A stretch of 47,598 nt of DNA, from positions 1-47,598 of the forward strand of contig JAGIAK010000008.1 in the NCBI GenBank assembly GCA_017744855.1, written 5' to 3'. Origin of the DNA: Microbacterium sp. GTDB taxonomy: Bacteria; Actinomycetota; Actinomycetes; Actinomycetales; Microbacteriaceae. Shown here piece after piece: positions 25,277-34,506 of this stretch. The first letter of the stretch is position 1; each line of letters starts with the position of its first letter. The notes beneath the pieces were generated by a model. The model searched no databases, was not told the DNA's origin, and saw only the letters and a list, made by a program, of their open reading frames with translations. Made by a program: the position numbers and the translations under genes.

Positions 25277-27553
25277 TCAGGAGCCGGCGTTGGCGGCGGA
25301 GAGCAGCTGCTCGACCTGCTCGTAGGTCACGTCGATGCCGGGGAATCCGATGAGGCGACCGATCGGGAACGACGCCATCATCTTCTGCATGGCCTCGTCG
25401 TTGGGGACCATCGAGACGGCCGAGGCGTCGGCGCTTGCCAGCTCGCCCATGAACCCGCCGAGCGCGCCCATCACGATCGGCCCCGCCACCGGGTGCGCCA
25501 CGACGTCGCCGATCGACGAGTTCATGGTCAACGGCAGCACGACGTCGTCGCCCTGCACGGCGACGATCTCCGAGGAGCGGATGTCGCGGCTGGACGCGGC
25601 GACGTCGACGACGTAGTCCCCGCCCTCGACCACGTAGCGGTCGACGCGGACGTCCCAGTAGGCGAGGTCCTCGCGGCGCACGACGAGGTCGACCGTGCGG
25701 GTCTCCCCCGCGGCGAGCGCGACGGAGGCGAAGGCTTTGAGCTCGCGCGGGGCGCGCTGCACGATCGAGCCGGGGAGGGAGACGTAGACCTGCACGACCT
25801 CACGCCCGTCGCGATCACCCGTGTTGGTCACGTCGACGGAGACGGCGACGTCGCCCGCGCCGTTCAGCGACACCGAGGCCTCCCCGTAGGCGAACGTCGT
25901 GTACGAGAGACCGTGCCCGAACGGGTACGTCACGTCCAGCCCCTTCGCGTCGTACCAGCGGTATCCGACGAGCAGTCCCTCGCCGTAGCGGACGTGGCCG
26001 AACTCGCCGGGGAAGTTGCCGTAGGAGGGGTTGTCCTCCAGGCGCACCGGGACCGTCTCGGTGAGCTTGCCTGACGGGTTCACCGCTCCGTACAGCACGT
26101 CGGCGACGGCGCTGCCTCCGGCCTGACCGAGCAGCCAGCTCTCCACGATCGCGGGCACGCGGTCGGCGAAGGGCAGCGCCACGACGCCGCCGTTCGAGAG
26201 CACCACGACGGTGCGGGCGTTGGCGGCGAGCACGGCATCCAGCACGGCCAGCTGCGCGGCGGGCAGGTCGATGTGGTCGCGGTCGAAGCCCTCCGACTCC
26301 TCCGCGGCCGGCAGGCCGAGGAACACGACGGCGACGTCGGCTGCGGCGGCGACCTCGACGGCCTCTGCGCGGAGGTCGTCGGCGGAGCGTCCGGATGCCG
26401 CGACGGCACCGCCCGCGACCGCGAATCCCGGCGCGTAGGAGACGGCGTCGCCGCCGACCTCGCGCAGGGCGTCGAGCGCGGCGTCGACTCGCGTCGGGTT
26501 GATGAGCGACGAGCCGGCGCCCTGGAAGCGCGGCTCGGCGGCGAACGCACCGATCACGGCGACCCTCTGAGTCGGCGCGAGCGGGAGCAGGGCGCCGTCG
26601 TTCTTCAGCAGCACGATCGAGCGGCCTGCGGCCTCACGTGCGAGCGCGTGGTGCGCGTCGACGTCGAGCGGTCCGGAGACGGCCGGGCGCTCCCCCGCCT
26701 TGCGCACGAGGTCGATCGCACGGTCGGCGGCGGTGTCGAGCACGGACTCCGCGAGCCGTCCGTCGCGCACGGCGGCCACGAGCTGCGCGTCGGTCCGTCC
26801 ACCGGATGCGGGCATCTCCAGGTCGAGTCCGGCGGCGACACCGGCGACCCGGTCGTTCACGGCGCCCCAGTCCGACACGACCAGGCCGTCGAAGCCCCAC
26901 TCGTCTCGCAGCACGCTGGTGAGCAGCCACGGGTCCTCCGAGGTCCACACGCCGTTGAGCCTGTTGTACGAGCACATCACGGTCCACGGCGACGCGTCCT
27001 TGACGACGCGCTCGAAGCCGCGCAGGTAGATCTCGCGCAGCGGGCGAGGGTCGACGTCGGAGCTGGCGCGCATCCGGTCGAACTCCTGATTGTTGGCGGC
27101 GAAATGCTTGAGCGAGGTGCCGACGCCCTGCGACTGCACACCGCGCACGGACGCTGCGCCGAGCACGCCCGACACGATCGGGTCCTCGGAGAAGTACTCG
27201 AAGTTGCGTCCGCACAGGGGCGAGCGCTTGATGTTGATGCCGGGGCCGAGCACGACGGCGACGTTCTCGATCGCGGCCTCAACGCCGATCGCCGCGCCCA
27301 CGCGCTCGATGAGCTCGGGATCCCACGACGAGCCGATGCCGACTGCGGGCGGGAAGCAGGTCGCGGGGACGCTGGAGGCGAGGCCGAGGTGGTCGGTGCC
27401 GCCCGCCTGCTTGCGGAGGCCGTGCGGGCCGTCGGTCATCATGATCGACGGGAGGCCGACCCGGTCGACGGCCTTGGTGGTCCAGAAGTCCGCGCCGCTG
27501 GTCAGCGATGCCTTCTCCTCGAGGGTGAGGTCGGATGCCGAGATCTCGGTCAT
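25277..27553 (-). CDS. Glycoside hydrolase family 3 beta-glucosidase
   Basis: 758 residues, no signal peptide, so cytosolic. The N-terminal TIM barrel has the nucleophile Asp228 in VVSDWGAV and the KHFAANNQE block (residues about 155). The second alpha/beta sandwich (about 300-520) supplies the acid/base Glu, likely in AAEESEGFDRDH, and a fibronectin-III-like domain (about 575-645) follows; the C-terminal 100 residues are less conserved. It would cleave beta-linked glucosides or cellobiose taken up from outside. A good -35/-10 pair lies upstream and a TetR gene is divergent, so it is likely TetR-controlled. AAAGGA precedes the ATG. Confidence 0.95.
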   Translation of the reverse strand: MTEISASDLTLEEKASLTSGADFWTTKAVDRVGLPSIMMTDGPHGLRKQAGGTDHLGLASSVPATCFPPAVGIGSSWDPELIERVGAAIGVEAAIENVAVVLGPGINIKRSPLCGRNFEYFSEDPIVSGVLGAASVRGVQSQGVGTSLKHFAANNQEFDRMRASSDVDPRPLREIYLRGFERVVKDASPWTVMCSYNRLNGVWTSEDPWLLTSVLRDEWGFDGLVVSDWGAVNDRVAGVAAGLDLEMPASGGRTDAQLVAAVRDGRLAESVLDTAADRAIDLVRKAGERPAVSGPLDVDAHHALAREAAGRSIVLLKNDGALLPLAPTQRVAVIGAFAAEPRFQGAGSSLINPTRVDAALDALREVGGDAVSYAPGFAVAGGAVAASGRSADDLRAEAVEVAAAADVAVVFLGLPAAEESEGFDRDHIDLPAAQLAVLDAVLAANARTVVVLSNGGVVALPFADRVPAIVESWLLGQAGGSAVADVLYGAVNPSGKLTETVPVRLEDNPSYGNFPGEFGHVRYGEGLLVGYRWYDAKGLDVTYPFGHGLSYTTFAYGEASVSLNGAGDVAVSVDVTNTGDRDGREVVQVYVSLPGSIVQRAPRELKAFASVALAAGETRTVDLVVRREDLAYWDVRVDRYVVEGGDYVVDVAASSRDIRSSEIVAVQGDDVVLPLTMNSSIGDVVAHPVAGPIVMGALGGFMGELASADASAVSMVPNDEAMQKMMASFPIGRLIGFPGIDVTYEQVEQLLSAANAGS

Positions 27554-27592
27554 GAGCGTTCCTTTCGCGGGCGACAGCGGTGTCCTGCGAAA

Positions 27593-27621
27593 ACTATATG
27601 TCGGTCAGTATTAGATTTCAA
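27593..27621 (-). promoter_or_regulatory. Sigma-A-type promoter of the GH3 gene
   Basis: On the minus strand TTGAAA (27616-27621), 17-nt spacer, TATAGT (27593-27598), then about 33 nt to the ATG. The divergent TetR gene shares this 95-bp AT-richer gap, so the repressor probably binds within it. Confidence 0.7.
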
Positions 27622-27648
27622 ACGTTGTTCAGGATTACCCTCGGTGAC

Positions 27649-28233
27649 ATGGCACGACGAGGTTCGTACGCGAAGGGCGTGGCGCGGCGCGAGGAGATCC
27701 TCGAGAGCGCCCTCGACGTGATCGGGCGCCGTGGGTACCAGAACGCCTCCCTGAAGCAGATCGCCGAGGTCGTCGGCGTCACCCCCGCCGCACTGCTGCA
27801 CTACTTCGGCTCGAAGGAGGAGCTCTTCACGGCCGTGCTGCGCAAGCGCGACGAGCACGACAGCCTCGACCCCGTCGTGCAGGGCCTCGACGATGCACGG
27901 GCCGGACTCGTGCAGGTGATCAGGCACAACACCGAGGTGCCCGGCCTGGTCGAGCTCTTCTCACGGCTCGCCGTCGACGCGGCCGACCCCGCGCACCCGG
28001 CCCACGACTACTTCCTCGAGCGCAGCGCACAGTTGCGGGAGTCCGTGGTCGAGGGGTTCACGCGCGACCCCGACCGCGCCGGCCTCCTCGACGCCGAGAC
28101 GACGGCCAGGGTGGTGCAGGCCGTCGCCGACGGGCTGCAGCTGCAGTGGATGATCGACCCGAGCGTCGACATGGCCGGGATCGTCGAGAAGCTCATCGAC
28201 GCCCTCTTCCCGCCGTCCTCTCCTGCGAGCTGA
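27649..28233 (+). CDS. TetR-family transcriptional regulator
   Basis: 194 residues. The N-terminal helix-turn-helix is typical (REEILESALDVIGRRGYQNA, then KQIAEVVGVTPAALLHYFGS), followed by an all-helical ligand domain. The start at 27649 is chosen because MARRGSYAKG leads directly into the domain; no Shine-Dalgarno is visible, and TACCCT at 27636-27641 would allow a leaderless transcript. It is divergent from the GH3 gene and is its obvious regulator; the inducer would be a sugar or glucoside derivative. Confidence 0.92.
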   Translation: MARRGSYAKGVARREEILESALDVIGRRGYQNASLKQIAEVVGVTPAALLHYFGSKEELFTAVLRKRDEHDSLDPVVQGLDDARAGLVQVIRHNTEVPGLVELFSRLAVDAADPAHPAHDYFLERSAQLRESVVEGFTRDPDRAGLLDAETTARVVQAVADGLQLQWMIDPSVDMAGIVEKLIDALFPPSSPAS

Positions 28234-28275: not shown

Positions 28276-29214
28276 TCACCCCTTCACGGCACCGCCGAGG
28301 CCCGCCGAGCGGAGGAACACCGACTGGAACACCAGGAACATCGCGATGGGGATCAGTGTCGCGATCGCGAGTGCGGCCAGGAACACGTCCAGCTCCGTCT
28401 GCGACTGCACCGCGGGAAGCCGCACGGACAACGGCTGCACGGCGGGATCCGGGAGCACGAGCATCGGCCAGAGGTAGTCCTTCCATGCGGCGATGATCGC
28501 GAACACCGACACCACCCCGAGGATGGGCTTCGACATCGGCAGCACGATCGACCAGAAGAGCCGGAAGGGCCCGGCTCCATCGGTGCGCGCCGCCTCGAAC
28601 ACCTCTCGGGGCAGTCCGTCGAAGAACCGCTTCACGAGCAGGATGTTGAACGCGTTCGCTCCCATCGGCAACCACACGGCCAGGTAGTTGTTGAGCAGGT
28701 TCGCCCCCGGGAGCATCGGCGGGTGCACGATCGTCAGATACAGCGGCACGAGCAGCACGATGCCGGGGATGAAGAGGGTCGCCAGGACGAGGGCGTTGAG
28801 TATCCCCGCATACCGCGGCTTCAGCACCGACAGCGCATAGCCGGCCGTCGTCGCGATGAGCAGTTGCACAGCCCAGGCCCCTGCGGCGATCACGATCGTG
28901 TTGAAGAAGTACCTGTCGATGTGGATATCGGTCCACGCGGTCGACAGGTTGGCCCAGTCGATGCCGTTCGGCCACAGCGCGAACGGTTGCGTCAGGGTGT
29001 CCTGCGTGGGCGTGACCGCCGACTTCGCCAGCCAGAGGATGGGGCCGAGCCCCGCGACGACGAGCCCGACGAAGAGGAACACGTGCGTCGCGGTCATCCC
29101 GAGACGGATGCCAGGGCGACGGCGCTCCGCCTCCGAGATGACGGTGCGGTCCGCGGCGCGCTCCGCGCGCTCCGCGGCCTTCTCGGCTGCACGGTCGTCT
29201 GTGCGAGCGGTCAT
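28276..29214 (-). CDS. Carbohydrate ABC transporter permease (MalG-type)
   Basis: 312 residues: a charged N-terminal tail (about 40 residues) and six membrane segments. The EAA loop is FEAARTDGAGPFRLFWSIVLP, where the ATPase docks. It is the last gene of the lacI-GH13-binding protein-permease cluster and overlaps the preceding permease by 4 nt (ATGA). No ATPase gene is in the cluster, so a shared MsiK-type ATPase encoded elsewhere is likely. Substrate probably an alpha-glucoside or maltodextrin, from the GH13 neighbour. Confidence 0.93.
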   Translation of the reverse strand: MTARTDDRAAEKAAERAERAADRTVISEAERRRPGIRLGMTATHVFLFVGLVVAGLGPILWLAKSAVTPTQDTLTQPFALWPNGIDWANLSTAWTDIHIDRYFFNTIVIAAGAWAVQLLIATTAGYALSVLKPRYAGILNALVLATLFIPGIVLLVPLYLTIVHPPMLPGANLLNNYLAVWLPMGANAFNILLVKRFFDGLPREVFEAARTDGAGPFRLFWSIVLPMSKPILGVVSVFAIIAAWKDYLWPMLVLPDPAVQPLSVRLPAVQSQTELDVFLAALAIATLIPIAMFLVFQSVFLRSAGLGGAVKG

Positions 29215-30173
29215 GTCGTGCTCCAGCGGTCGGTGAGTCGGAAGTACAGCCAGGACAGCACGGCGAGCACGATCGCGAGCAGCACGGACACTGCAGTAGC
29301 CTCCCCGTAGTCGCCGCCGAGACTGTTGCGGAACGCCTTGTCGTAGATGTACAGCAGCACGGTCTTGGTGGCGCCGGCAGGACCGCCTCCCGTGAACAGG
29401 AACGGCTCGAGGAAGACCTGGGCGGTCGCGATGACCTGCAGGATCAGCATGATGAAGAGGATGCCGCGCAGCTGCGGCAGCGTGACGTGCCAGATCTTGC
29501 GCCAGATGCCTGCGCCGTCGACCTCGGCCGCGTCGTACAGCTCGGGCGGCACGCCCAGCAGCGCGGCGAGGTAGATGATGATCGATCCGCCGGCGCCGGC
29601 CCAGGTGGCCTCCAGCACGAGCGACGGCATGGCCTGCACGGCATCCTGAATCCACGGCTGCGGCGGGATCCCCACCCACGCGAGCACCGAGTTGAAGACG
29701 CCGGAAGGATCGGCGCTGTAGAAGAACTTCCACAGCAGCACCGCGACGACCGGCGGGATCACGACCGGCAGGTAGGCGAGCGCCGAGTACAACCCCTTGC
29801 CGCGGCGCACCTCGCTCATCAGCACCGCCATGAGCAGCGGAAGCGGGAACCCGAACAGCAGAGCGAGCACGGCGAACCACAGGGTGTTGATCACCGCCCG
29901 GCCCAGCGCGGGGTCGGACAGCACCGTGACGTAGTTGTCGAGTCCGACCCAGTCCGAGACGATGAGGTTCGTCTTCTGCAGGCTCATGATCACCGACTGC
30001 ACGATCGGCGACCAGGAGAAGAACACGAACACGAACAGCATGGGCAGCACGAACAGGAGGTTCGCGAGGCCGCCACCGCGGTACCAGGTGAGCGGGCTGC
30101 GGCGGCGGGCGGGGCGCACCGCGGGCGGCGGAGTCTCCTCCGCCGCCCGCGGCTCGTCGAGAGTCATCGTCAC
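29211..30173 (-). CDS. Carbohydrate ABC transporter permease (MalF-type)
   Basis: 320 residues, about 40-residue cytosolic tail and six membrane segments; EAA loop is YDAAEVDGAGIWRKIWHVTLP. GTG at 30173 is used, with ATG at 30167 an equal alternative; neither has a clear ribosome binding site, and it begins only 8 nt after the binding-protein stop, so translation may be coupled. Together with the second permease it forms the membrane channel of a sugar importer. Confidence 0.92.
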   Translation of the reverse strand: MTMTLDEPRAAEETPPPAVRPARRRSPLTWYRGGGLANLLFVLPMLFVFVFFSWSPIVQSVIMSLQKTNLIVSDWVGLDNYVTVLSDPALGRAVINTLWFAVLALLFGFPLPLLMAVLMSEVRRGKGLYSALAYLPVVIPPVVAVLLWKFFYSADPSGVFNSVLAWVGIPPQPWIQDAVQAMPSLVLEATWAGAGGSIIIYLAALLGVPPELYDAAEVDGAGIWRKIWHVTLPQLRGILFIMLILQVIATAQVFLEPFLFTGGGPAGATKTVLLYIYDKAFRNSLGGDYGEATAVSVLLAIVLAVLSWLYFRLTDRWSTT

Positions 30174-30180
30174 GGACGTG

Positions 30181-31551
30181 TCACTCGTCGAGCTTCGCCT
30201 GCGCGTCGCTCTGGGCCTGGGCCAGCAGCGCGTCGATGTCGGCGTTCTGATCCGTCAGCACGCTCTGCACCACGGTGTCGAGCAGGGCGTATACCTCCTG
30301 CGTCTTCGTCTTCGGCTCGCCGACCGGAGTCTGGTCCCAGATACCCTCGCGGAACGGCGTCATCTGGTCGACCGGCACGTTGATGTAGTCGGCGATCCAC
30401 TCCTGCGACTGCTCGTAGAGGTCACGGCTGAGCACGGGCAGCAGCGGGGTGCCGACCGCCTGACCCGACTCGTCCAGCGTCTTGGCGTCGAGGATCGCGG
30501 CGTCCTTGTCCATGAGCTTCTGCATGTAGTACCAGTCGATCCACTCCACAGCCGCCGCCTTGGTCTTCTCGTCGACGGTCGGGCTGATCACGGCGATGTC
30601 GCCGCCGCCGAGGGTGCCAGGGTCATCGCCCTCGGTGGGGACGACGGTCAGACCGTAGATCGACGGGTCCATGCCGAAGTCGCGCACGAGCGCGGTGTAG
30701 ACGTCTGAACCCGACGTGTACATGCCGATGTTGCCGGCGGCGAACTCCTGGTTGATGGTGCCCCAGTCGAGGTCGACCTTCGAGCCGAAGGAGCCGTCCT
30801 CCCACTTCAGGTCGTGCAGGAACTGCAACGACGCCTTCGTGGCCTCGCTGTCGACCGTCGACGTCGCCGAGCCGTCTGCGGCATCCGTCTGCGTGCGGCC
30901 ACCGCGTGCGACGGTCTGCGCCGTGAGCTGCCACCCGCCGGTGTTGTTGATCGCCATCTGCGCGTAGCCGGACTTGCCGGTGGCGTCGTGGATCTTCTTC
31001 GCCGCCTCCCGGATCTCGTCCCAGGTGGTGGGCGGGCTGTCCGGGTCGAGGCCGGCCTGCTCGAAGAGGTCGCGGTTGTAGTGCAGCCCCATCGCGTACG
31101 CCTGCCGCGGGAAGCCGTAGATCTTGCCGTCGCCGCCCGTGACCCCGTCGAGGATGATGGGGTTGAACTTGTCGGCGTATCCGAGTTCCTTCACCTCGGC
31201 GGTGACGTCCATGAGCTGCCCGTTCTCGAGCAGGGTCTTGGAATCGGTGAACGGCACCGTGAACACGTCGGGCAGGCTGCCGCCCGCGAGCTGCACGGCG
31301 AAGGTCGGACCCTCCCACTCGTACTCGACCCCGATGATGTCGATGTCGGGGTGTTCCTTCTCGAACTGCTTCTCCTGGGCGGCGAAGGCGTCGTACGCCG
31401 CGGCATCCGCTCCCGGGGGGAAAGTGGCGACCCGCAGCTCCGTCTTGCCGCTGCCATCCGCCTCACCCCCGCCTGCGCTGCAGCCGGCGAGCGCGCCGAC
31501 GACCGCCAGAGCCGTGAGGCTCGCGAGGAGCCCTCTGTTGATTGACGTCAT
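30181..31551 (-). CDS. Extracellular sugar-binding lipoprotein
   Basis: 456 residues. The signal peptide ends in the lipobox LAGC with Cys24, so the protein is anchored to the outer face of the membrane. The rest is a two-lobed solute-binding fold of the MalE class (FPRQAYAMGLHYNRDLFEQA is its ligand-proximal block). AAGGA nine nt before ATG 31551 fixes the start; an upstream ATG adds only MEGRT. It captures the sugar for the two permeases. It follows the interrupted GH13 gene by 40 nt. Confidence 0.94.
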   Translation of the reverse strand: MTSINRGLLASLTALAVVGALAGCSAGGGEADGSGKTELRVATFPPGADAAAYDAFAAQEKQFEKEHPDIDIIGVEYEWEGPTFAVQLAGGSLPDVFTVPFTDSKTLLENGQLMDVTAEVKELGYADKFNPIILDGVTGGDGKIYGFPRQAYAMGLHYNRDLFEQAGLDPDSPPTTWDEIREAAKKIHDATGKSGYAQMAINNTGGWQLTAQTVARGGRTQTDAADGSATSTVDSEATKASLQFLHDLKWEDGSFGSKVDLDWGTINQEFAAGNIGMYTSGSDVYTALVRDFGMDPSIYGLTVVPTEGDDPGTLGGGDIAVISPTVDEKTKAAAVEWIDWYYMQKLMDKDAAILDAKTLDESGQAVGTPLLPVLSRDLYEQSQEWIADYINVPVDQMTPFREGIWDQTPVGEPKTKTQEVYALLDTVVQSVLTDQNADIDALLAQAQSDAQAKLDE

Positions 31552-31591
31552 TGTCCGTCCTTCCATGTGTATTGCGATCGGGTGGTGCAGG

Positions 31592-33277
31592 TCAGTCCGC
31601 TTGCGGGGAGCGCCCCGTCTCGGGGCGCAGCAGCAGCCAGGCGGTCGAGTCGGGGGGCAGCGCGCCGTCGAGGGCGCAACTGGCGAGGATCACCTCGTGG
31701 TGGGCGGGCAGCGGCACCGTCCCCGCACCCAGGTTGGTGATGCTCACGACGCCGTCGCCGCGCTGGAACGCCAGCACGTCGGCGCCCAGCTCCAGCCAGT
31801 CCAGGCGGCCGTCGACGAGGTCGCGGATGCTGCGGCGCAGCGCGATCGCCGAGCGGTAGAGGTGGAGAGTGGAGTGCGGATCGGTCTCTTGGGCGTCGAC
31901 TGTGAGCGCGGCCCAGTCGGTGGGCTGCGGCAGCCACGGGGAACCGCCGAACCCGTATGGACTTGCGTCCCCCGACCACGGCAGCGGCACCCGGCATCCG
32001 TCGCGGCCCGGATCGACCCCGCCGGAGCGGAAGTGCATGGGGTCCTCGATGACCTCGCGCGGCAGCTCCACCTCGGGGAGCCCGAGCTCGTCGCCCTGGT
32101 ACACGTAGAGGCTGCCGGGGAGGGCCGCCACGAGGAGCGCCGCCGCCCTGGCCCTGCGCGTGCCGAGCACGGGGTCCGACGGAGTGCCGAACCTCTTGCG
32201 GTCGAAGGCGAAGGACGAGTCGGCGCGGCCGTACCGCGTCACCGGTCGTGTCACGTCGTGGTTCGACAGCACCCAGGTCGCAGGAGCGCCGACGGGCGCA
32301 TGCTCGGCGAGCGTTCGTTCGATGGAGGCACGCATCGCCGCGGCGTTCCACGGCTGAGTCATGAAGCCGAAGTTGAAGGCCGTGTGCATCTCGCCGGGAC
32401 GGAGATAGCGGGCGAACCTCTCGGCGTCGTCGAGCCACACCTCGCCGACGAGCACCCGCTCGCCCTCGTACTCGTCGGCGACGCGACGCCAGGACCGGTA
32501 GATGTCGTGCAGCTCATCGCGATCGACGTGCGGATGCTCGCCGGGCGCCGCAGCCCCTTAGGGGAGGTTCGGGAGGGCCGGGTCCTTCACCGGCAGGGCG
32601 GCCGAGTCGATGCGCACGCCGGCGACGCCGCGGTCGAACCAGAAGCGCAGCACGTCCTCATGCTCGCGACGCACGTCGGGGTGGTTCCAGTTGAGGTCGG
32701 GCTGCTCGGGTGTGAACAGGTGCAGGTACCACTCGCCTGGCACGCCGTCGGCATCCGTCGTGCGAGTCCAGGTGGCGCCCTGGAAGCTGGAGACCCAGTC
32801 GGTGGGGATCCCCGCTCCGTCTGCTCCGTGCCCGGGATGGAACCAGAAGCGCTCACGCTCCGGACTGCCCGGCCCCGCCGTGAGGGCCTGCTGGAACCAC
32901 TCGTGCTCAGAGGAGATGTGGTTCGGGACGATGTCGATGATCGTGCGGATGCCGAGAGCGAGGGCCTCCTCGATGAGGTGCTCGGCCTCGGCGAGCGTGC
33001 CGAACCGGGGGTCGATGCCCCGATAGTCCTGCACGTCGTAGCCGCCGTCGGCGAGGGGGCTCGGGTACCACGGGTTGAACCACAGGGCGTCCACGCCGAG
33101 ACTCTTCAGGTAGCCCAGTCGGGAGCGCACGCCCGCGAGGTCGCCGATGCCGTCGCCGTTCCCGTCGGCGAAGCTGCGCACGTAGACCTGGTAGATCACG
33201 GCGGTGCGCCACCAGCCCGCGTCGGCGGGAGGGGTCGCGGCCGGTGCGGTGCTGCGGCGCTGAACCTCGGTGTCCAC
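31592..33277 (-). pseudogene. GH13 alpha-glucosidase (oligo-1,6-glucosidase type) interrupted by an in-frame TAA
   Basis: The frame is otherwise open for 562 codons from GTG 33277, four nt after GAGGAG. Residues 1-239 hold the AVIYQVYVRSFADGNGDG start of the barrel, DIVPNH and the nucleophile Asp224 in GVRIDSA; TAA at 32558-32560 is codon 240. The same frame continues with EHPHVDRDELHDIYRSWR, the acid/base Glu279 in LVGEVWLD, SNHD and the C-terminal beta domain. Since the Asp and Glu are separated, neither part should be active. No frameshift is needed: it is a single nonsense codon, or a sequencing error. It would have split alpha-glucosides imported by the adjacent ABC system. Confidence 0.85.
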
Positions 33278-33309
33278 GGAACTCCTCGTCGTCGATGGCG
33301 GGTGTTCCG

Positions 33310-33338
33310 AATGTAGCGATTCTTTGTGATTCACGCAA
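33310..33338 (-). promoter_or_regulatory. Promoter of the glucosidase-transporter operon
   Basis: Minus strand TTGCGT (33333-33338), 17-nt spacer, TACATT (33310-33315), about 26 nt of leader to the GTG. The -35 lies inside the upstream LacI half site. Confidence 0.75.
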
Positions 33339-33376
33339 GAAGTAAACAGAATGTCGTAATTTTGCTACTTCTTGCG
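33334..33376 (-). promoter_or_regulatory. LacI-type operator pair in front of the glucosidase gene
   Basis: CGCAAGAAGTA (33334-33344) and TACTTCTTGCG (33366-33376) are a perfect 11-bp inverted repeat 21 bp apart. Each carries the CGCAAG half site that also forms the operator at lacI, and one covers the -35 box, so binding should repress. Confidence 0.75.
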
Positions 33377-33409
33377 AGCACGACAATGCTCCGACCGGCG
33401 CAGACCCTT

Positions 33410-34414
33410 TTACGCGGCCGGCCCTGTCGAGGCGCGCAGCACGAGCTCCGGCTCGAAGAGCAACTCGTCGCCGGCATGCACTGTGCCGGCGATCTGCGCG
33501 AGCAGCAGCTCGATCACGGCGCGACCCATCGATTCGATCGGCTGGCGCACCGTCGTCAGCGGAGGCTCCGTGCAGCTCATCAGCGCCGAGTCGTCGAAGC
33601 CCACGACGCTGACGTCGCCCGGAACGCTCAGTCCTGCGCGACGCGCGGCGCGCACGGCGCCGAGGGCCATGGGATCGCTCGCGCACACCACCGCGGTGGC
33701 TCCGGCGGCGAACAGCCGCGCCGCGCCCGCCTGCCCCGACTCCAGGGAGTAGAGGCCACGCGCCACGAGGTCGTCCGACAGCGGGCTGCCGAGACGCTCG
33801 AGCAGTCGCCGGGCGGCGTCGAGCTTGCGCTGGGAGGGGATGTGGTCCGCAGGGCCGAGCAGCAGGCCGATCCTCCGATGCCCCAGCTGATGCACGTGCA
33901 GCACAGCCTGCTCCGCAGCGGTGGCGTCGTCCGTCGACACCGTCGCGAAATGGAGCTCAGGCACCCTCGCGTTGACGAGCACCGTCGGAAGGTTCACCTG
34001 GCGCAGACGCTCGTAGTGGCCGTGCACGGCATCCGCCTGCGTGTAGTTGCCCCCGAGGAAGATCACCCCCGACACCTGCTGGGCGAGGAGCAGGTCGACG
34101 TAGTCCGACTCGGTGACGCCCCCGGCGTTCTGCGTGCACAGCAGGGGCGTGTACCCGTTCTGCGTCAGCGCCCCGCCCACGATCTCGGCGAACGCGGGGA
34201 AGATCGGATTCTGCAGTTCGGGGAGCACGAGGCCCACGAGTCGCGCCCGTTCCCCGCGAAGCTTGGTCGGCCGCTCGTAGCCCAGCACGTCCAGGGCCGT
34301 GAGCACGGCCTGCCTCGTGGCCTCCGACACCCCCGGCTTGTCGTTGAGCACGCGGCTCACCGTGGCCTCGCTCACGCCGACCTTGCGGGCCACCTCTGCC
34401 AGACGCTTCGACAT
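33410..34414 (-). CDS. LacI-family transcriptional regulator
   Basis: 334 residues. The DNA-binding head is canonical (LAEVARKVGVSEATVSRVLN, then DKPGVSEATRQ), with a hinge around residue 50 and a periplasmic-binding-protein-like ligand domain from residue 60. It is first on the minus strand before the GH13/ABC cluster and its half site CGCAAG recurs there, so it is the local repressor, released by a sugar such as maltose or isomaltose. ATG 34414 opens directly into the head. Confidence 0.95.
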   Translation of the reverse strand: MSKRLAEVARKVGVSEATVSRVLNDKPGVSEATRQAVLTALDVLGYERPTKLRGERARLVGLVLPELQNPIFPAFAEIVGGALTQNGYTPLLCTQNAGGVTESDYVDLLLAQQVSGVIFLGGNYTQADAVHGHYERLRQVNLPTVLVNARVPELHFATVSTDDATAAEQAVLHVHQLGHRRIGLLLGPADHIPSQRKLDAARRLLERLGSPLSDDLVARGLYSLESGQAGAARLFAAGATAVVCASDPMALGAVRAARRAGLSVPGDVSVVGFDDSALMSCTEPPLTTVRQPIESMGRAVIELLLAQIAGTVHAGDELLFEPELVLRASTGPAA

Positions 34415-34421
34415 CCGCTCA

Positions 34422-34445
34422 GTGTACGCAAGTTCTTGCGTACAC
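34422..34445 (-). promoter_or_regulatory. LacI-type autoregulatory operator
   Basis: GTGTACGCAAG (34422-34432) and CTTGCGTACAC (34435-34445) form a perfect 24-bp palindrome with a two-base centre, 8 nt upstream of the lacI start. The inner CGCAAG half sites match those at the glucosidase promoter. Confidence 0.85.
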
Positions 34446-34472
34446 TTGCGCGAATATCGGCGCTCGGACGAC

Positions 34473-34506
34473 GAGGGCGCCTCCCCCGTTCGGAAGAGAC
34501 GCCCTC
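34473..34506 (-). terminator. Hairpin after the LCP gene
   Basis: GAGGGCGCCTC (34473-34483) pairs with GAGACGCCCTC (34496-34506) except for one mismatch; 17 nt beyond the LCP stop. Confidence 0.6.

Follow-up and report, generated by a model that had tools for sequence, protein, structure and literature searches.

The GH13 gene and its sugar-uptake locus

The window, by which we mean the whole 47,598-nucleotide stretch analysed here, is contig C203 of a Microbacterium draft genome of 3.14 Mb in 214 contigs, listed as 79.45% complete; from its contig number and completeness the draft is probably metagenomic. On the minus strand it carries a LacI-type repressor gene, a GH13 gene with a single in-frame TAA and the genes of a sugar ABC transporter. 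The features are the following:

34421..34446, no strand assigned: perfect 12-nt inverted repeat, operator-like, upstream of lacI
33410..34414, minus strand: LacI-family repressor, upstream of the GH13 gene, ending in TAA, no internal stop
33324..33386, no strand assigned: operator-like inverted repeat upstream of the GH13 gene, 21-nt arms, 81% complementary, with GCAAGAAGTA / TACTTCTTGC
31592..33277, minus strand: putative GH13 alpha-glucosidase gene, GTG start at 33277, TGA end, single internal TAA
32561..33277, minus strand: N-terminal 239 codons, first half of the alpha-amylase domain, ending 15 residues past Asp224
32558..32560, minus strand: in-frame TAA, codon 240, flanked on the plus strand as CCCC-TTA-GGGG
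32453..32455, minus strand: GTG, the first possible in-frame restart after the stop (35th codon), with GAGGG seven bases before it
31592..32557, minus strand: post-stop part of 321 codons plus TGA, with the remaining catalytic domain (Glu279, Asp341) and a DUF3459 match
30181..31566, minus strand: sugar ABC transporter substrate-binding protein, no internal stop
29211..30173, minus strand: ABC transporter permease, no internal stop
28276..29214, minus strand: second ABC transporter permease, no internal stop

The minus-strand translation of the GH13 gene runs to 562 codons, with one internal stop and a terminal TGA. On the plus strand, CCCC occupies 32554-32557, TTA 32558-32560 and GGGG 32561-32564, in agreement with the sequence context described in the earlier note, and the TAA at 32560-32558 is indeed, as that note held, the only stop inside the gene. 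With the stop numbered as position 240, the motifs GVRID, GEVW and SNHD correspond to Asp224, Glu279 and Asp341, the catalytic residues of GH13 enzymes. Hence all three are encoded, but under translation table 11 the TAA at codon 240 prevents their appearance in a single chain. Searched separately, the two halves match the PF00128 model in order (positions 1-201 before the stop and 210-445 after it), which upholds the view that they lie in the same frame and belong to one protein. Read through the stop, the gene matches the whole catalytic domain (model 1-445) with 323 bits and "1 TAA"; it is the top PF00128 match among the eight listed in the genome and the sole one with a stop. Neither half, when searched apart, reaches an NCBIfam cut-off, and the proposed designation as an alpha-glucosidase rests on PDB matches. 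With the intact G021 orthologue as the query, the alpha-glucosidase entries 8yif and 8yie are matched over residues 22-552 with E of about 1e-153; these belong to the same family and, unlike the stop-bearing window gene, are full-length proteins.

The gene order is widely conserved. In all 25 Microbacterium loci compared (L009-L033) the LacI gene, the GH13 gene and the gene for the substrate-binding protein follow one another in this order, and both permeases stand beside the GH13 gene in 23 of them, the remaining two being short contigs. In five of these loci (L027, L028, L029, L030 and L033), the GH13 protein is 75-83% and LacI 78-90% identical to that of the window, whereas the binding protein is 50-52% and the permeases 64-73% identical (the binding protein is 80-86% identical in the other 20), a pattern that looks like an exchange of the transporter genes downstream of a retained enzyme gene. 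The ATG listed for the binding protein of the window, at 31566, is probably not its start—the ATG at 31551, 15 bases further on and following GGAAGG, begins an apparent signal peptide. Past the transporter genes, positions 25277-28233 hold a GH3 glycosidase gene and a divergent TetR gene. The best NCBIfam match of the former is exo-alpha-(1->6)-L-arabinopyranosidase, at 924.6 bits and under the cut-off of 1300. This pair is found next to the locus in 11 of the 25 relatives, in loci that extend only about 5 kb past the match.

Orthologues in the genus and the site of the break

Besides the window, the orthologue set holds 79 places, with at least 73% DNA identity among the matches listed and few candidates scored per genome. 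All were read. In 74 of the 79 the frame is open to near its normal end (first stop at least 532 residues past the start of the match), and the other five are frameshifted (L107, L181, L182, L183 and L184). The stops in the pieces of these five lie at residues 550-552, which is the normal end of the protein, or, for L183, at 396, where the match is carried by another frame. None of the 79 listed places shows an in-frame stop within the gene body, and a further orthologue outside this set (G350, contig C3; 73% protein identity) is matched over residues 3-551 without a stop. An in-frame stop is therefore seen at one of 80 places, that of the window alone. Four of the five frameshifted orthologues come from one- or two-contig assemblies (G091, G308, G299 and G183, listed as 68, 76, 92 and 96% complete), which suggests that these four frameshifts are indel errors; the fifth (G062) comes from a contig of 3.7 kb.

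The closest DNA match to the window gene is 82% identical, among the matches listed from 365 other genomes of the genus group, so that the comparison is one between species. The best 25 of 80 loci listed from named genomes are all from Microbacterium, and the nearest genomes in a second collection are marked as the same genus. Two intact orthologues without internal stops, from M. murale (L030; 82.9% protein identity) and from G021 (85.1%), resemble the window gene in near-equal length, in the same motifs, in the LacI gene upstream and in the ABC transporter genes downstream; the transporter genes of M. murale differ in being more distant (50-73%).

Residue variation along the protein appears to be highest in the loop that holds the stop. 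In an alignment with 45 intact orthologues, all distinct (46 distinct sequences from 94 loci, with L107 left out and 38 places fetched later not among them), the codon 240 column holds nine different residues and falls in the 99th percentile of entropy. The smoothed entropy along the protein (residues 26-540) is highest at 243, and the proteins of relatives show indels near codon 240. In a structural model of the M. murale orthologue, the stop position lies between a strand at 220-223 and a helix at 254-268; the mean pLDDT of this model is 60 and falls below 50 at residues 225-256, so that it lends the loop placement only weak support. We suggest that the break falls in the variable loop leading from strand 4 to helix 4, as far as a model of such low confidence can indicate. 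The stop does lie between the catalytic Asp and Glu, as had been claimed (codon 240 against Asp224 and Glu279), and the loop at this site is under less constraint than any other in the protein. The frameshifted orthologue L181 (positions 1180-1240; G299) breaks in this same loop, at residue 239 and beside a run of five Cs; its frame breaks a second time downstream, which makes it look like an indel error.

The codons that relatives use in this column are mostly remote from TAA: one of the 45 orthologues has a codon a single change away, 17 have codons two changes away and 27 three. Hence a single change would need an unusual starting codon, a point that weighs equally against a real single change and a single-base error.

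Draft quality and age of the lesion

An earlier coding scan of the window scored antisense frames equally high, and a scan by codon usage was used in its place. This covered 20 stretches (397 kb) and the window, together 444.6 kb or about 14% of the genome, and is blind to frameshifts and heavily decayed genes. It returned 10 stops with a coding signal on both sides, nine of which are gene ends with the start of the next gene close behind; for one of these, C33:37766, what is seen is the downstream start, as the gene before it extends past the edge of the stretch. The GH13 stop is the sole mid-gene stop found in the sequence scanned. Likewise, 117 of the 118 ABC_tran matches in the genome are free of stops, the exception being a partial match of 25 bits. 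With one mid-gene case among the 10 candidates in 444.6 kb, the idea that the assembly is generally full of stops finds no support. The scan and the ABC_tran counts mark the GH13 stop as a rare lesion; a single wrong base is neither proved nor excluded by them.

The conservation of the gene speaks to its age. The window sequence keeps all 266 of the residues that are invariant in the 45 orthologues, 131 before the stop and 135 after it. With no hits at about 610 nonsynonymous sites, the neutral drift that can have followed the loss of function is capped at about 0.005 substitutions per site (95%), or at 0.010 if only the sites after the stop are counted, against a third-position terminal branch of 0.58 for the window gene. 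Hence the gene either worked until very recently or still works and the base is wrong. Along the branch of the window, the ratio of first- plus second-position to third-position change is 0.122 for the whole gene (rank 6 of 34), 0.045 before the stop (rank 21 of 35) and 0.166 after it (rank 5 of 35; median 0.095), the ranking being confined to sequences with a third-position branch above 0.08 (34 of the 46 for the whole gene and 35 for the halves). Pairwise ratios, of the window against those of other pairs, are 0.24 vs 0.18 before the stop and 0.31 vs 0.24 after it. The value for the post-stop part mildly hints at relaxation, lies inside the range of intact genes and comes from third positions that are probably saturated; such a hint also sits uneasily with the 135 of 135 invariant residues kept. 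Overall, the gene appears from these substitution patterns to have been under selection until very recently.

Origin of the stop and its consequences

We regard the GH13 gene, with moderate confidence, as a recent nonsense allele that gives an inactive fragment of 239 residues. The stop is confined to one lineage and the gene is intact in its relatives (no in-frame stop at the 79 listed places, 74 of them intact), the pattern expected of a recent nonsense pseudogene. The same perfect conservation of invariant residues is also expected from a wrong base, and this counts against the certainty of recent loss. An error of consensus or assembly, in which the organism has an unbroken gene and a single base, or a position mixed between strains, was miscalled in the draft, is a plausible if tentative alternative. 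It gains from the 214 contigs and incomplete state of the draft, from the 266 of 266 residues kept, from the lack of the stop at every listed orthologous place and from the four frameshifts in one- or two-contig assemblies, which suggest errors in this gene elsewhere. It loses from the 444.6 kb scanned, in which no further mid-gene stop was found, and from the 117 stop-free ABC_tran matches. The frame is kept on both sides of the stop, so an indel error is not the cause. An old, decaying pseudogene is barely conceivable: the single stop and the slightly raised position ratio after it could be read in that sense, but there is no second stop in the frame, GC3 is 0.916 before the stop and 0.907 after it, and the complete set of invariant residues contradicts such a history.

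There remain explanations in which the enzyme is still made. The stop might be read through by a suppressor tRNA or by leaky termination, with low-level full-length enzyme as a form of regulation, which we consider very unlikely. The continuation of coding constraint past the stop is the type of argument used by Belinky et al. 2021 (PMC7918605), according to whom readthrough is frequent at in-frame stops that orthologues have in common. Their genes resemble the window gene in having one in-frame stop with purifying selection still visible; their large-scale set, however, required the stop in orthologues of at least two species, and the present one was seen in a single genome. As none of the 79 listed orthologous places shares it, the argument does not carry over, and the constraint is accounted for by recency alone.

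Both bacterial release factors read TAA, and the adjoining lacI gene terminates with this codon; among the nine genes whose terminators were looked at, one ends in TAA (lacI), one in TAG and seven in TGA. Of 34 tRNA places found, 31 were read by ARAGORN, and in these, from a genome 79.45% complete, no anticodon for UAA, UAG or UGA occurs. Given the lacI terminator and the 31 tRNA places read, recoding of TAA is not supported. A functional split enzyme, in which the 239-residue fragment would pair with a chain begun anew at the GTG at 32455 to form a working barrel, is more improbable still. The location of the break in the variable loop that joins strand 4 to helix 4, on the low-confidence model, would suit it, as would the in-frame GTG downstream of the stop with GAGGG seven bases ahead. 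Against it, the restart loses 34 codons, including the conserved HPH...DRDE..HDIYR.WR stretch, the GAGGG is explained as coding for part of an EGER motif common in relatives, and none of the relatives read has such a split. Taken more broadly, a real and fixed TAA with the enzyme still made, by low readthrough or by two-chain assembly at this loop, could uncouple sugar uptake from hydrolysis, and to this we give only a slim chance. Recoding, readthrough and a working split enzyme are all without positive support. Of the three options raised in the earlier note, recent loss and sequencing error both fit the data, and readthrough is the one that fared poorly.

If the allele is a recent nonsense mutation, as we favor, a normal, conserved GH13 gene, the first one after the LacI-type repressor gene of a sugar-uptake locus, would have gained one nonsense change very recently. 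Ribosomes would stop after 239 residues, and the fragment, devoid of Glu279, Asp341 and half of the barrel, would be inactive. Past the stop, some 1 kb of message would then go untranslated: up to the listed ATG at 31566 this amounts to 991 bases, against 25 in an intact gene, which makes Rho-dependent polarity on the transporter genes possible and might lower their expression. The C-over-G ratio in this stretch peaks at 2.3 over 78 bases, which could at best suggest a Rho site, and scanning of 31500-34500 for promoters and terminators gave no match. The claim that the transport genes and the repressor are intact holds, as the binding protein, both permeases and LacI are free of internal stops. 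The corollary that uptake may continue is too simple, for polarity could reduce the transporter. Elsewhere in the genome, contig C82 ends within a second GH13 gene, of which 206 residues are present (223 bits to PF00128); a further enzyme of the same general type may therefore exist, and may cover some of the loss.

No paper on a prematurely terminated copy of this gene in Microbacterium came up in a literature search. A GH13 gene with one stop is an ordinary event of little significance by itself. It is either a clean case of a gene at the first step of loss, with one stop and no further damage seen, or an illustration of how one base can leave a draft genome seemingly short of an enzyme. Should the stop be real, the organism might take up a sugar which this enzyme no longer splits, and a stop ahead of the transporter genes would offer a simple natural test of polarity.
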